Assembly (NCBI GenBank): GCA_018970865.1
Contig: JAGWVN010000032.1
Coordinates: forward strand, 1 to 35,203
Direction: 5' to 3'
Source: Betaproteobacteria bacterium
GTDB lineage: Bacteria > Pseudomonadota > Gammaproteobacteria > Burkholderiales > Burkholderiaceae_E
DNA length: 35,203 bases
Numbering within the stretch: the first letter of the stretch is position 1; every line of letters begins with the position of its first letter. Both the position numbers and the translations under genes were made by a program. Below the pieces are notes generated by a model. It was given only the letters and a program-made list of their open reading frames with translations, ran no database searches and was not told the DNA's origin. Below are positions 28,593 to 34,983 of this stretch, in pieces.

Positions 28593-30935
28593 ATGAGTTC
28601 CTCTGCCACGGGCATCGGCGCGCGCGTCCTGCGCAAGGAAGACGAGCGCCATCTGCACGGCCGCGGCCGTTTCATCGACGACCTGGTCTTTCCGCGCCTG
28701 CTCGAGGCAGCCTTCGTGCGCAGCCCGCTCGCCCACGGGCGGCTGCGCGGCATCGGCCTGCCGGCCGGCGCCGAGGGCCGCATCTTCACGGCAGCGCATC
28801 TCGCCGGTTCGGTCCTGCCCATCACCGCGCAGTCCTCGCTGCCCGGCTATCAGGTGTCCGACTATCCGGTGCTCGCGCAGGGCAAGGTGCGCTTCGTGGG
28901 CGAGCCGCTCGCGGTGTGCGTGGCGCCCACCCGCGCCCAGGCTGAAGACCTCGCCGCCGAGGTGGTACCCGACATCGAGCCGCTCACCCCGCTGCCCGAT
29001 GCCGCCACCGCGCGGGCCTCGTCGGTGCAGGTGCACGAGCACTGGAACAGCAACCTGTTCATCCATCTCAAGCGCGAGGAAGACCTCAGCGAGGTTGCCC
29101 GCCGCGCCGCCCATGTGGTCACCCGTGAGTTCCGCATGGCGCGCCAGAGCATGTCGCCCATGGAAGGCAAGGCGGTGCTCGCCTACTGGGATGACCATCG
29201 CTCGCAGCTGGTGGTGTATTCCTCCACCCAGGTGCCGCACATGATCCGCTCGGGGCTGGCGCAGTGCCTGGGCCTCGAGCTGGCCAGCCTGCGGGTGATC
29301 GCGCCCGATGTCGGCGGCGGCTTCGGCTACAAGTGCAACCTCATGCCCGAGGAGGTGGCGGTCGCCTGGCTCGCGCTCACGCTGCGTCGCCCGGTGCGCT
29401 GGATCGAAGACCGCCGCGAGCACCTCGTGGCCGGCACCAACTGCCGCGAGCATCAGTACCGCATGTCGGCCTATGTCGATGAGCGCGGCCGTCTGCTCGG
29501 CCTCGATGCCGAGGTGCATGTCGACAGCGGCGCCTACTCGGTGTGGCCCTTCACCGCCTGTCTGGAAACCGGTCAGATCATCGGCAACCTGCCCGGCCCC
29601 TACCGCATGGAGAAGTACCGCTGCCATGTGTACGGCGTGGCCACCAACAAGCCGCCCTTCTCGCCCTACCGGGGCGTGGCGCGGCCGGGCGTGGCCTTCG
29701 CCATGGAGCTCATGATCGACGCCATCGCCCGCACCGTCGGGCGCGATCCCTGCGCGGTGCGCCTCGAGAACCTGGTGCGCGGCGCCGACATGCCCTTCAC
29801 CAACATCGCCGGCAAGGCCTTCGATTCCGGCGACTACCCGTCCAGCCTGCATCGGGTCATGGCCATGCTCGACCACGCCGGCTTCGCGCAGCGCCAGGCG
29901 CAGGCCCGGGCGCAGGGCCGCTTCCTCGGCCTGGGCTTTGCCACCTACACCGAGCAGGCGGCGCACGGCACCTCGGTGTTCGCATCCTGGGGCCTGCCCA
30001 TCGTCCCCGGCTATGACGGCGCCACGGTGCGGCTGGCCGCTGACGGCACGCTGGAGGTCAAGGTGGGCGTGCACTCGCACGGCCAGGGCATGGAGACCTC
30101 GCTCGCCCAGGTGGCCAGCGAGATCACCGGCCTGCCGCTCGAGCGCATCGTGGTCACCCACGGCGACACCAACGAGACCCCGTTCTCCACCGGCACCTAT
30201 GCCTCGCGCTCCATCGTCATGGCCGGCGGCGCGGTGTCCAAGGCCTGCGAGGTGCTGGTCGCGCGGGTGCGGCCGCTGGCCGCCCACCTCGGCGCGGGCG
30301 CGCCCGATTCAGTGCGCCTGCAGGATGGCCGTTTCGTCGGCGATGCCGGCGAGGTCAGCTGGCAGCAGCTTGGCGAGGCCTGGTACCACCGGCCCGAGCG
30401 CCTGCCGCGCGAGATGCACACCGGCGGGCTCGAGGTCACCGAGAGCTACAAGCCGGCGGTCGACACCGGCGTGTTCAGCTACGCCAGCCACGGCGCGCTG
30501 GTCGAGGTCGACCCTGGCAGCGGTCAGGTGAAGCTGCTCGACTACGCCATCTGCGAAGACTGCGGCACGCTGGTCAACCCCATGATCGTCGAGGGCCAGA
30601 CCATCGGCGGCGCGGTCCAGGGCATCGGCACCGCGCTCTTCGAAGAGATGCCCTACGATCGCTCGGCGCAGCCGCTTGCCTCCACCTACGCCGACTACCT
30701 CCTGCCCGGTGCGGCCGAGATGCCCACCATCCGCATCGACCACACCGAGACACCCTCGCCGCACACCCGGCACGGCATCAAGGGCGTGGGCGAGGGCGGC
30801 GCCATCGCGCCGCCGGCGGCCATCCTCAACGCGGTCAATGCCGCGCTCGCCGAGTTCGGCGTCGAGTTCGCGGAAACCCCGCTCACGCCGCGCCGCCTGC
30901 TCGGCGGGCTGCTGGCCGCCAGGGGCAGCGCATGA
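28593..30935 (+). CDS. Molybdenum hydroxylase large subunit (xanthine dehydrogenase/CoxL family)
   Basis: A 780-residue molybdopterin-cytosine-dinucleotide-type catalytic subunit. GRGRFIDDLVFP marks the N-terminal a/b hammerhead, APDVGGGFGYK the first Mo-cofactor motif, FSPYRGVARPG the active-site loop (Tyr359-Arg364) and GVGEGGAIAPPAA the catalytic glutamate (Glu734). The loop lacks the Cys of form I CO dehydrogenase (AYRCSFR), so CO is not the expected substrate; hydroxylation of an N-heterocycle, aldehyde or similar carbon with water as oxygen donor is. GGGAG lies seven bases upstream of the ATG at 28593. It overlaps the FAD subunit gene by four bases. Confidence 0.94.
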   Translation: MSSSATGIGARVLRKEDERHLHGRGRFIDDLVFPRLLEAAFVRSPLAHGRLRGIGLPAGAEGRIFTAAHLAGSVLPITAQSSLPGYQVSDYPVLAQGKVRFVGEPLAVCVAPTRAQAEDLAAEVVPDIEPLTPLPDAATARASSVQVHEHWNSNLFIHLKREEDLSEVARRAAHVVTREFRMARQSMSPMEGKAVLAYWDDHRSQLVVYSSTQVPHMIRSGLAQCLGLELASLRVIAPDVGGGFGYKCNLMPEEVAVAWLALTLRRPVRWIEDRREHLVAGTNCREHQYRMSAYVDERGRLLGLDAEVHVDSGAYSVWPFTACLETGQIIGNLPGPYRMEKYRCHVYGVATNKPPFSPYRGVARPGVAFAMELMIDAIARTVGRDPCAVRLENLVRGADMPFTNIAGKAFDSGDYPSSLHRVMAMLDHAGFAQRQAQARAQGRFLGLGFATYTEQAAHGTSVFASWGLPIVPGYDGATVRLAADGTLEVKVGVHSHGQGMETSLAQVASEITGLPLERIVVTHGDTNETPFSTGTYASRSIVMAGGAVSKACEVLVARVRPLAAHLGAGAPDSVRLQDGRFVGDAGEVSWQQLGEAWYHRPERLPREMHTGGLEVTESYKPAVDTGVFSYASHGALVEVDPGSGQVKLLDYAICEDCGTLVNPMIVEGQTIGGAVQGIGTALFEEMPYDRSAQPLASTYADYLLPGAAEMPTIRIDHTETPSPHTRHGIKGVGEGGAIAPPAAILNAVNAALAEFGVEFAETPLTPRRLLGGLLAARGSA

Positions 30936-31762
30936 AGGCCGCCCCCTTTGCCTGGCAACGGCCGGCCAGCCTGCCCGCGGCGTTGCAGGCCCTGCAGGCC
31001 GAGGGCTGCAGCGCGGTGGGCGGCGGCCAGTCGCTCGGCCCCATGCTCAACCTGCGTCTGGCCCGTCCGGCCGCGCTGGTCGATCTGCGTCGCCTGCCCG
31101 AGCTGCGCGGCAGCGCGCTGCAGGATGGGGTCCTGCGCCTGGGGGCTGCCGTCACCCACGCCGAGATCGAAGACGGCCTGGTGCCCGACACCACCCGCGG
31201 CATGCTGCCCACCGTGGCCCGCGGCATCGCCTACCGGGCGGTGCGCAACCGCGGCACGCTCGGCGGCAGCCTGTGTCACGCCGACCCGGCCGCCGACTGG
31301 GTCAACGCGCTCATGGCGCTGGGCGCCACGGTGAGCCTGAGCAGCCCGCAGGGTACGCGGCAACTGCCGCTGGAAGACTTCATCATCGCCGGCTATGCCA
31401 CCGCGCTGCAGCCTGGCGAGGTGCTCACCGAGGTCGAGCTGCCGGCCTTCGGCCCGGGCCTGCGATGGGGCTATCACAAGCTCTGCCCCAAGGTGGGCGA
31501 GTTCGCCGACGCGATCGGCGTGGTGGTGGTCGATCCCGGCATCGGCTTCTGCCGGGTGCTGGTGGGCGCCATCGAGACCCGCCCGGCGCTGCTGCCGGAC
31601 GCCGCCGGCCTGCTGCGCGAGGCCGCGCAGGCCCCTGACCCGCACGCCCTCTTCTCGGCCGCGGTCACCCGCGCCTGCCCGGGCGCAGACCCGGTCTTCA
31701 TCCACCAGCACGCGGTGGCGCTGGTGCGCGCCCTCGCCCAGATGAACGCCCGCCAGCCATGA
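30932..31762 (+). CDS. Molybdenum hydroxylase FAD-binding subunit (CoxM family)
   Basis: A 276-residue FAD subunit. The flavin-binding motifs VGGGQSLGPMLNLRLA near residue 29 and RNRGTLGGSLCHADPAAD near residue 105 match the family pattern (AGGxSL...TxGG). It shuttles electrons from the 2Fe-2S subunit to an acceptor such as quinone or NAD. The start overlaps the large subunit stop (ATGA), and the end overlaps the small subunit start in the same way, so the three are made together. The product is slightly shorter than many CoxM proteins, but no domain appears missing. Confidence 0.93.
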   Translation: MKAAPFAWQRPASLPAALQALQAEGCSAVGGGQSLGPMLNLRLARPAALVDLRRLPELRGSALQDGVLRLGAAVTHAEIEDGLVPDTTRGMLPTVARGIAYRAVRNRGTLGGSLCHADPAADWVNALMALGATVSLSSPQGTRQLPLEDFIIAGYATALQPGEVLTEVELPAFGPGLRWGYHKLCPKVGEFADAIGVVVVDPGIGFCRVLVGAIETRPALLPDAAGLLREAAQAPDPHALFSAAVTRACPGADPVFIHQHAVALVRALAQMNARQP

Positions 31763-33105
31763 TCACCCAGCTCGTCCAGCTCAGCGTCAACGGCGAGCGC
31801 GTGCAGCGGGTCTGCGAGCCGCGCACCCACCTCGGCGACTTCCTGCGCAAGGAGCTCGGCCTCACCGGCACGCACCTGTCCTGCGAGCACGGCGTGTGCG
31901 GCGCCTGCACCGTGCTGATCGACGGCGCGCCGCAGCGCTCGTGCATCACCTTCGCGGTGGCCTGCGAAGATGCCGAGGTCACCACCATCGAGGGTTACGG
32001 CACTGATCCCGTCATGGCGGCGCTGCGTCGCGCCTTCCATGAGCACCACGCCCTGCAGTGCGGCTACTGCACGCCCGGCATGCTGTGCACCGCCCGCGAC
32101 ATCGTGCTGCGCCTGCCCGGGCCCGATCCACAACGGGTGCGCAACGAGCTTGCCGGCAACATCTGCCGCTGCACCGGCTATGTCGGCATCGTCGAGGCCA
32201 TCAACGCGGTGCTGCAGGCCAAGGCCAGCGGAACGCTGACCATGCCGGCCGTGCAGCCCGCACCGGCTGCGGGCCTGGGCCACGGCGCGGGCCAGGCCAG
32301 CGTGCTGCCCGCGGCCACCGCAGCCACCGCAGCCACCGCAGCCACCGCAGCCACCGCGGCCACCGCGGCTCCCGGGACTCACGCCATGCCGGTGGCCGCG
32401 CCGCCTGAGGCCGCGGCGGCAGCCGCCACGCCAGCGCCCTCTGTCGCGGGCGCGGCCGGCGCCGATGCCCCCGCCACCTTCTCCGCCTGGACTCCCATCG
32501 TCCTGCCCGAGCACGGCGACTGGATCACCGTCACCCAGTCGCTGGCCCTGCCGGTGGCGCCCGACGCGGTCTGGCAGCGCCTGCAAGACCTGCCGCTGGT
32601 GGCGCGCTGCCTGCCCGGGGCGCGGGTGCTGCGCCATGAGGCCGAGCGCGCCGAGGGTCAGATCGACATCCGCTTCGGCCCCATCACCGCGGCCTTCGCC
32701 ATGCGCGCCGAGCTCTTCCTGCAGCCCGAGTCTCGCACCGGGCGCATGCATGCCGAGGGCACCGACCGCTTCAGCGGCACGCGGGTGCAGTCACGCCTGA
32801 ACTACCAGGTGCTGCCCGAGGGCGAGGGTGCGTGCCGGCTCGCCCTGCAGCTCGCCTTCCAGCTCGCCGGGCCGCTCGCGCAGTTCTCGCGCAGCGGGCT
32901 GGTGGCCGACTATGTCAACGAGCTGTCGCGCCGCTTCGGCCGCAATCTCGAGCAGGCCGCGCTCGCCGGCGCCGGTCAGCCCGGTGCGGGCGGCGCTGCG
33001 GGCGCGGCGCCGGGGCTGCCCGAACTGCCGGCCGACAGCGCCCAGGCGCCGAGCCTGCTGGCCCTGCTCTGGGCCCGGCTGCGCCGATGGCTGGGCATGT
33101 CCTGA
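31759..33105 (+). CDS. 2Fe-2S subunit of Mo hydroxylase fused to a CoxG/SRPBCC domain
   Basis: A 448-residue fusion. Residues 1-160 are a CoxS-type small subunit with a plant-type 2Fe-2S site (Cys42, 47, 50, 62 in CEHGVCGAC...C) and the second site Cys101, 104, 136, 138 (CGYC...CRC). A low-complexity Ala/Thr/Pro linker of about 85 residues follows. Residues 250-400 form an SRPBCC/CoxG-like domain (LPVAPDAVWQRLQDLPLVARCLPGA; FSRSGLVADYVNELSRRFGRNL). CoxG is normally a separate gene and in CO oxidisers is implicated in membrane attachment of the enzyme. The C-terminal LLWARLRRWLGM tail is amphipathic and could aid membrane contact, which is inference. About three times the usual small-subunit length. 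Confidence 0.92.
   Translation: MITQLVQLSVNGERVQRVCEPRTHLGDFLRKELGLTGTHLSCEHGVCGACTVLIDGAPQRSCITFAVACEDAEVTTIEGYGTDPVMAALRRAFHEHHALQCGYCTPGMLCTARDIVLRLPGPDPQRVRNELAGNICRCTGYVGIVEAINAVLQAKASGTLTMPAVQPAPAAGLGHGAGQASVLPAATAATAATAATAATAATAAPGTHAMPVAAPPEAAAAAATPAPSVAGAAGADAPATFSAWTPIVLPEHGDWITVTQSLALPVAPDAVWQRLQDLPLVARCLPGARVLRHEAERAEGQIDIRFGPITAAFAMRAELFLQPESRTGRMHAEGTDRFSGTRVQSRLNYQVLPEGEGACRLALQLAFQLAGPLAQFSRSGLVADYVNELSRRFGRNLEQAALAGAGQPGAGGAAGAAPGLPELPADSAQAPSLLALLWARLRRWLGMS
32311..32364. repeat. Six 9-bp tandem repeats (gcagccacc) in the fusion linker
   Basis: Units at 32311, 32320, 32329, 32338, 32347 and 32356; the inner four are identical gcagccacc and the outer two are gcggccacc. They encode Ala-Ala-Thr repeats between the 2Fe-2S and SRPBCC domains. 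Copy-number change keeps the frame and only alters linker length. Confidence 0.9.
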
Positions 33106-33853: not shown

Positions 33854-33879
33854 AGCAAGCCCTCACCGGAGAATCGCGC

Positions 33880-34983
33880 GTGATCACCGTCATCCATGAA
33901 GACCGCTGCAGCGAGCTGCCCGCGGCCGTGCCCGACCCGCACTCGCTGTGGCTCGACCGCGCCGAGATCGCGCAGGCCACCGGCTGGGACTGGAAGCCCG
34001 AAGGCCTGTGCAAGGACGACACCTGCCTGCCGGTGCCGCCGGCCCGCGCCGAGGCCCTGGTGCGCGGCGACCGGCTCGACCTCGCCGGCATGTGGCGTCA
34101 TCTCGGCCAGCCGCTCGCGGCCAATCCCGGCGGCGAACACTGGGTGCTCGGCACCGATGCCGCCCAGCGCGGCCAGGCGCTGGCCAGCCTGCATGCGCCC
34201 GACTTCGCGCTGCCCGACCTCGACGGCCGGATGCACCGGCTCTCCGATCACCGCGGCCGCAAGGTCTTCCTGGCCACCTGGGCCTCGTGGTGAGGCTGCC
34301 GAACTGACCTGTCCGTGTGGCAGGCCCTGTTCGAGGAGCTTCAATCCCATGGCTTCATGGTGCTGGCGGTGGCGCTCGATCAGCCCGAGGCGGCCGCGCC
34401 CTGGGTGGCGACCGTCAGGCCGACCTATCCCTGCCTGATCGACCGGGATCACCGGGTGGCCGAGCTCTACAACCTGGTGAATGTGCCCGAGGCGGTCTGG
34501 ATCGACGAAACCGGTCGCATCGTGCGCCCGCCCGAGAGCGCGGGGGCCACGGACGGCTTTCGCGCCATGGACCGCAAGACCTTCACCGTGCCCGAGGCGG
34601 TGCTGGCCGAGCGCGCCCGGGTGCGCTCGGTGTATCAGCAGGCCTTGCGTGACTGGGTGCTCAAGGGCACGGGCAGTGAGCACGCGCTCACCGCCGAGCG
34701 CGCGGCGCAGAAGGTGGCGCGGCCCGATCCCGCCGTTGCCCAGGCCCACGCCCACTTCCGTCTCGGGCTGCACCTGCGGCGCCTGAACCGCGAGGACGAG
34801 GCCCTGGCCGAGTTCGCGCAGGCCATCCGTCTGCACCCTGACTCCTGGGCGATGTGGCGGGAGTCGGCGCCCAAGGACGGCCGTGGCCTGGCCGCGGGTG
34901 AGGCCTTCTGGTCGCGGGTCGATGCCCTGGGCGAGCGGCCCTACTACCGGCCGATCGACCTGCCGGGCGTGCAGTCGGCATGA
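33880..34983 (+). CDS. Redoxin selenoprotein, ResA-like WAxxUGC family (in-frame TGA = Sec138)
   Basis: One frame of 368 codons from GTG 33880 (GGAG eight bases upstream) to TGA 34983, interrupted only by a TGA at 34291-34293. The thioredoxin-fold domain begins near residue 105 (APDFALPDLDG), and the TGA is residue 138 in W134-A-S-W-U-G-C140, exactly where a redox-active Cys is expected. Downstream sequence continues the fold without loss (VALDQPE..., then NVPEAVWID with the cis-Pro at 203), followed by a C-terminal TPR-like region (residues 287-325). The WAxxUGC pattern is, to my knowledge, that of a recognised bacterial selenoprotein family. The N-terminal 100 residues carry Cys10, Cys44 and Cys49. 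It ends in an ATGA overlap with slyX. Alternatives are a TGC-to-TGA mutation or a sequencing error. Confidence 0.85.
34294..34326 (+). promoter_or_regulatory. Candidate bacterial SECIS hairpin after the Sec codon
   Basis: Directly after the TGA, ggctgcc (34294-34300) can pair with ggca-g-gcc (34319-34326), giving a seven-base-pair stem with one bulged G and an 18-base loop that contains a GU (34311-34312). SelB-binding bSECIS elements lie in this position and often carry a G and U in the apical loop. The loop is larger than in E. coli fdhF, so the fold is tentative. Confidence 0.4.

Follow-up and report, generated by a model that had tools for sequence, protein, structure and literature searches.

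An in-frame TGA at the active site of a betaproteobacterial ResA-like redoxin gene is a probable selenocysteine codon

Introduction

Near the end of a 35,203-nucleotide stretch of betaproteobacterial DNA (the window in what follows), a gene for a redoxin is interrupted by an in-frame TGA at the position where the redox-active residue would be expected. The question is whether this codon is read as selenocysteine (Sec), read as something else, used as a stop, or is simply an error. Our reading is that the product is a probably cytoplasmic protein of 367 residues with a thioredoxin fold, a ResA-like WAxxUGC selenoprotein, and that UGA138 would be decoded as Sec by means of a hairpin just downstream. 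We give this reading a probability of about 0.95.

Results and Discussion

The reading frame and its internal TGA

The features of the gene are as follows.

33868..33871, + strand, likely ribosome-binding GGAG, 8 nt 5′ of the GTG, as read from the sequence
33880..34983, + strand, probable selenoprotein gene, 367 residues, with a GTG start and a TGA stop
34291..34293, + strand, in-frame TGA, the putative Sec codon 138

Between the GTG at 33880 and the TGA ending at 34983 there is a single internal stop, the TGA at 34291-34293, which lies in the motif WASW(U)GC. The column of the 33880 GTG is common to relatives L020-L028 in alignment A1, which is made up of the window plus 36 of the 68 related loci described below (37 rows). 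A first-pass annotation of the DNA had claimed that one frame runs on either side of the TGA, that both halves show normal codon use and belong to one thioredoxin-fold protein, and that standard gene callers would yield a 137-residue fragment and a separate 222-residue frame. All of this was borne out, codon use being judged by G+C at the three codon positions. The joined product is 367 residues long, and G+C by codon position is 0.77/0.53/0.93 on the 5′ side of the TGA and 0.76/0.50/0.90 on the 3′ side, resembling the values of the two upstream genes compared. The Pfam domain AhpC-TSA (PF00578) matches the read-through product at residues 105-215 (1.6e-19) and spans the TGA. The list of table-11 open reading frames splits the gene in two, into 137 aa (33880-34293) and 222 aa (34315-34983). 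A SlyX gene of 72 aa follows, its start codon overlapping the stop of the redoxin gene (ATGA, window 34980-34983), and so both may be translated together.

Residue 138 in related loci

A search of genome contigs gave 68 related loci, all of which carry the motif WASW[U/C]GC. The alignment of homologues that had been suggested as a check places either Sec (TGA) or Cys at residue 138 in 68 of 68, the codon being TGA in 21, TGC in 43 and TGT in four. The ratio of 21 Sec to 47 Cys is not to be read as a frequency, because one stretch among the search patterns had Cys written in at residue 138. Judged by record titles, the TGA forms come from Betaproteobacteria (Burkholderiales, Rubrivivax) and Alphaproteobacteria, and the Cys forms from Actinomycetota, Myxococcota, Planctomycetota, Verrucomicrobiota and some Proteobacteria. 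Within A1, Trp134, Ala135, Ser136, Trp137, residue 138 (U read as C), Gly139 and Cys140 are invariant.

The part of the gene that lies beyond the TGA is conserved. L020, at 91% identity the nearest relative, carries the TGA as well, and compared with this relative the 3′ part shows 93% amino-acid and 80% third-position identity, with 88% and 87% respectively for the 5′ part. Conservation on the two sides was similar in the six relatives compared; in five of them the 3′ side was the better conserved, and in L036 it was slightly less so.

The counts given below for 30 TGA rows leave out L096, L097 and L098, whose alignments are the same as those of L020, L021 and L026, and L099, which is the window itself; L088 and L089, which do not differ over the 120 nt compared, are both included. 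Alignment A2 has 22 rows, one for each of the 21 TGA loci and one for the window. On a tree of 77 rows the 30 Sec rows fall within one group of 36 (SH-aLRT 98) together with six Cys rows. A minimum of four changes between Sec and Cys is needed on this tree, three of them forced by well-supported branches; the two residues have been swapped at least three times, whichever the direction. Cys rows lie nested among the Sec rows, which suggests that Sec-to-Cys swaps have taken place, Myxococcus included. The three Myxococcus copies (L029, L030 and L031) carry Cys, sit amid proteobacterial Sec forms, and come from genomes that keep both SelA and tRNA-Sec; transfer and a Sec-to-Cys swap are the probable history. 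One Sec-form relative, L037, has an additional in-frame TAG at 2241 (codon 99 of the match), which is either a sequencing error or the mark of a decaying copy.

Selenocysteine machinery in the genome and in relatives

The genome from which the window comes (3.9 Mb in 192 contigs, 99.63% complete) holds a tRNA-Sec (77.6 bits), SelA (514 bits), SelB (368 bits once the pieces of a single 672-aa frame are put together) and SelD (308 bits, in a match without an in-frame stop). The four components of the bacterial selenoprotein criterion, selA, selB, selD and tRNA-Sec, each score above their family cut-off, and the genome search that the first-pass annotation had put forward as a check thus found all of them present. 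The SelD match (L018, own genome, C128) lies within an open frame of 802 aa, which resembles an FAD/NAD oxidoreductase close to its start, as in fused forms of SelD.

As a control, 14 named genomes were searched in the same way. SelA gave matches in 2 of the 14; SelB and SelD matched in all 14, exceeding the cut-off in two, and tRNA-Sec also matched in all 14, exceeding its gathering score of 47 in five. The gathering score for tRNA-Sec is therefore weak by itself, and at least 60 bits was asked for here. Likewise, the SelA cut-off of 22.8 admits distant paralogues, and so a match of at least 298 bits was used. Both thresholds were set in this analysis.

Among the 74 genomes of the host family, a full-length copy of the gene is present in 12, our own included, at 281-303 bits, and every one of the 12 has exactly one TGA (among the matches listed, as for all counts of carriers that follow). 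SelA was found in 12/12 carriers vs 24/62 non-carriers (Fisher p 5.7e-5, with kinship ignored), and tRNA-Sec at 60 bits or more in 10/12 carriers and 25/62 non-carriers. In genus g15, SelA occurs in seven of seven carriers and in none of five non-carriers, and in our own genus in five of five and one of five; in these two genera the presence of selA follows that of the gene. For the 68 related loci, the machinery was looked up in 50 of the genomes (21 TGA and 29 Cys, with 18 Cys loci left out). SelA was present in 17/21 TGA vs 9/29 Cys genomes. Among the matches listed, tRNA-Sec was present in 16/21 vs 8/29, and one or the other in 18/21 vs 9/29; the three TGA genomes with no tRNA-Sec and no full SelA among those matches (L028, L036 and L040) are metagenome assemblies. 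When Sec and the machinery were compared on the tree by independent contrasts, there were only three to four contrasts and the association was not significant.

It is conceivable, if doubtful, that in our own genus and g15 this redoxin, and not formate dehydrogenase, is the selenoprotein for which the Sec machinery is retained. The presence of selA in 24 of the 62 family genomes that lack the gene implies that other selenoproteins exist there, which counts against the redoxin as sole keeper. Formate dehydrogenase was considered as a second selenoprotein of our own genome and rejected, the nine TIGR01553 stretches found being below the cut-off and having no in-frame stop.

A candidate SECIS hairpin

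A little downstream of the TGA is a short hairpin that we propose as the SECIS element.

34309..34323, + strand, proposed SECIS hairpin, with a 5-bp stem (34309-34313 with 34319-34323) and the loop CGTGT (34314-34318)

The loop of this hairpin starts 20 nt past the UGA, and its second base is G. The bacterial SECIS model, as set out in the relevant passage of PMC13188914, has an apical loop of 3-9 nt with G among its first two bases and an upper stem of 4-16 bp, the loop lying 16-37 nt after the UGA. With a 5-nt loop, G at position 2, 5 bp and a spacing of 20 nt, the local hairpin fits the model in that passage, although the usual pair between the first and last loop bases is absent (C and T).

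The consensus of the hairpin over the 30 TGA rows is YTGYC-CGTGT-GGCAG. In the same rows the third base is invariant in 11 of the 341 codons that are not Trp or Met (start and TGA counted), and the only run of neighbouring invariant third positions is formed by codons 144, 145, 146 and 148 around Trp147. Stem and loop G are present together in 30/30 TGA rows and in 7/47 Cys rows. A looser search for any SECIS-like stem of at least 5 bp discriminates less well, with 30/30 TGA rows and also 30/47 Cys rows giving a hit. No compensatory change was seen in the local stem, where variation is one-sided at two of the five pairs and three pairs never vary; since the 3′ arm is invariant, there is no RNA covariation. 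In the 22 TGA rows of A2 the local hairpin appeared in 10 of the 22 minimum-energy folds of 42 nt, counted by eye.

A second hairpin competes for the same 3′ arm, with nine base pairs between 34296-34304 and 34315-34323. The protein could be a selenoprotein whose SECIS is this longer hairpin rather than the local one, and it has some claim, with its nine pairs formed in 87.9% of cells over the 22 TGA rows and a fold of this type being the minimum-energy structure in several rows, such as L025. Yet its pairs are broken in 4-7 of the 22 rows at four of the nine positions, and in one row at a fifth, whereas every cell of the local stem is paired in the same rows (110 of 110) and its codons are the ones that form the only run with invariant third positions. 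We therefore regard the longer hairpin as an unlikely, though not negligible, candidate and prefer the local 5-bp stem. The 30 TGA copies, with their invariant hairpin codons, their Cys twins and the tied presence of selA, make up a clean natural set, which would suit experiments on which of the two hairpins SelB reads and on why Sec and Cys were swapped on the tree.

Other readings of the TGA

The UGA might instead be read by a near-cognate or suppressor tRNA as Trp or Cys, or be used as a stop so that two short proteins are made, and two open frames with possible starts do exist (33880-34293 and 34315-34983). We hold this to be very improbable: all 47 relatives without the TGA have Cys at the column, which is what Sec, but not Trp, would lead one to expect, two separate proteins would have the redoxin domain cut at its active site, and SelA accompanies the gene in all 12 carriers of the host family among the matches listed. 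That the TGA is a miscalled or mutated TGC in a dead gene is hardly credible, for although TGC, the codon of 43 of the 68 relatives, is one base away from it, a TGA stands at the same column in 30 loci of Alpha- and Betaproteobacteria (the window included, three duplicates excluded), the part 3′ of the TGA is conserved about as well as the 5′ part in six relatives, and the genome has the full Sec machinery.

Fold, active site and probable function

Read as a selenoprotein, the product has the following parts.

N-terminal region, residues including Cys44 and Cys49
34009..34026, + strand, codons Cys44 to Cys49 (CxxxxC), both cysteines at least 90% conserved in A1
Residues ~104-216, ResA-like redoxin domain
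34297..34299, + strand, Cys140 codon (TGC), putative partner of Sec138 in the UGC motif, invariant in A1
Residues ~287-321, single TPR-like hairpin

An AlphaFold2 model, calculated from 37 sequences with Cys in place of Sec, has a mean pLDDT of 94.2 and a pTM of 0.91. In a Foldseek search of the PDB, ResA structures are among the top eight and the first eleven matches, led by 1su9 and 1st9, and the alignments of the first nine cover 113-118 columns at 1.3-1.5 Å. In the alignment Sec138 falls on the first Cys of CxxC in ResA, with one residue fewer before Cys140 (UxC). A profile search of the PDB placed designed TPR proteins at the top, above the thioredoxin-fold matches, through repeated weak matches to the tail. 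The N-terminus, MITVIHEDRC, has no signal peptide evident by eye, and so the protein is probably cytoplasmic.

We infer that the protein is a ResA-like reductase with Sec as the nucleophile and Cys140 as the resolving residue. A reductase is favoured over a peroxidase, since the ResA model scores 71.3 bits and the peroxiredoxin models 27.4 at most. In such a scheme SelB and Sec-tRNA-Sec would decode UGA138 as selenocysteine, with insertion directed by the hairpin whose loop lies 20 nt further on. Sec138, at the place of the attacking first Cys of ResA, would attack a disulfide or peroxide substrate and Cys140 would resolve the adduct as a selenenylsulfide. The Cys44/Cys49 pair may serve as an electron relay or as a second disulfide, and the TPR-like tail may be a site of partner binding.

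Relation to known families

The best NCBIfam match is NF041054 (WAxxUGC_long, 'ResA-like WAxxUGC motif-containing protein'), at 287.5 bits over residues 24-328 (E 1.6e-85). The WAxxUGC motif in a ResA-like domain is shared (WASWUGC, residues 134-140), and all 37 members of A1, Sec and Cys forms alike, match the model at E 0.001 or better. The assignment to a ResA-like WAxxUGC family made from the sequence alone was therefore right as to the family, which exists and gives the best match, but 287.5 bits is under its cut-off of 300, and by NCBI's rule the product is not a member, though the kinship is clear. Among the matches listed for the host family, eight of the 12 full-length TGA copies are below this cut-off (281 to 297.5 bits, short by 2 to 19) and four are above, so that a lower cut-off would recover the eight that are missed. 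The description of the gene as a hidden selenoprotein overstated its novelty; it is a further member of a selenoprotein family that has already been catalogued.

Similar proteins have been in print for some time. A 'Prx-like (UGC-containing)' selenoprotein with pfam00578 is given in the 2008 Global Ocean Sampling survey (PMC2398784), and the corresponding passages of two reviews name a 'UGC-containing Prx-like protein' (PMC9312934) and a 'UGC-containing TlpA disulfide reductase family protein' (PMC13188914). The example records that the reviews name are MDE0950781.1 and MBL6689828.1. The passage in PMC13188914 also cites PMC5029168, the main text of which does not contain 'UGC', for the UGC-containing family. 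According to the passage in PMC9312934, it is not clear what most such predicted selenoproteins do. Our product has PF00578 AhpC-TSA and the UGC motif in common with these entries. From domain and motif NF041054 would appear to be the 'UGC-containing' Prx-like family, and the gene product probably belongs to the UGC-containing Prx-like selenoproteins reported since 2008. Searches of the literature for WAxxUGC and for ResA-like selenoproteins returned no study of this protein among the best matches.

The thiol-disulfide oxidoreductases ResA, TlpA and DsbE share the thioredoxin fold, with Sec138 at the position of the first Cys of their CxxC. They differ in that the gene product has UxC, an extra N-terminal region with CxxxxC and a C-terminal TPR-like tail, and is without an evident signal peptide (by eye). 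Peroxiredoxins (PrxQ, thiol peroxidase and PrxU) share the AhpC-TSA Pfam domain, but their NCBIfam models match weakly (PRK09437 27.4, PrxQ 25.3 and PrxU 11.7 bits) compared with ResA (71.3).

Genomic neighbourhood

Open reading frames within 3 kb on each side of the related loci were clustered, and four flanking proteins of the window were searched for in the loci. A conserved gene neighbourhood was rejected: common neighbours occur within close groups, and no function was drawn from context. Such neighbours are common to 16 Nocardioides-type Cys loci and, likewise, within five alphaproteobacterial TGA loci. Short-chain dehydrogenases form one cluster that extends across seven loci of several groups; genes of this kind are common. 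Among L020-L098, many of which have short flanks, only L020 and its duplicate L096 have the SlyX gene and the fatty-acid-hydroxylase-like gene next to the redoxin gene.

Directly upstream in the window (28593-33102) is an operon resembling those for molybdenum hydroxylases or CO dehydrogenase. A simple pattern search of its large subunit found neither the AYxCSFR nor the AYRGAGR signature. A linker of Ala-Thr repeats connects its [2Fe-2S] small subunit (31759-33102) with a fused CoxG-like domain, and in the TGA relative L043 a similar small-subunit gene lies ~2.1 kb downstream.
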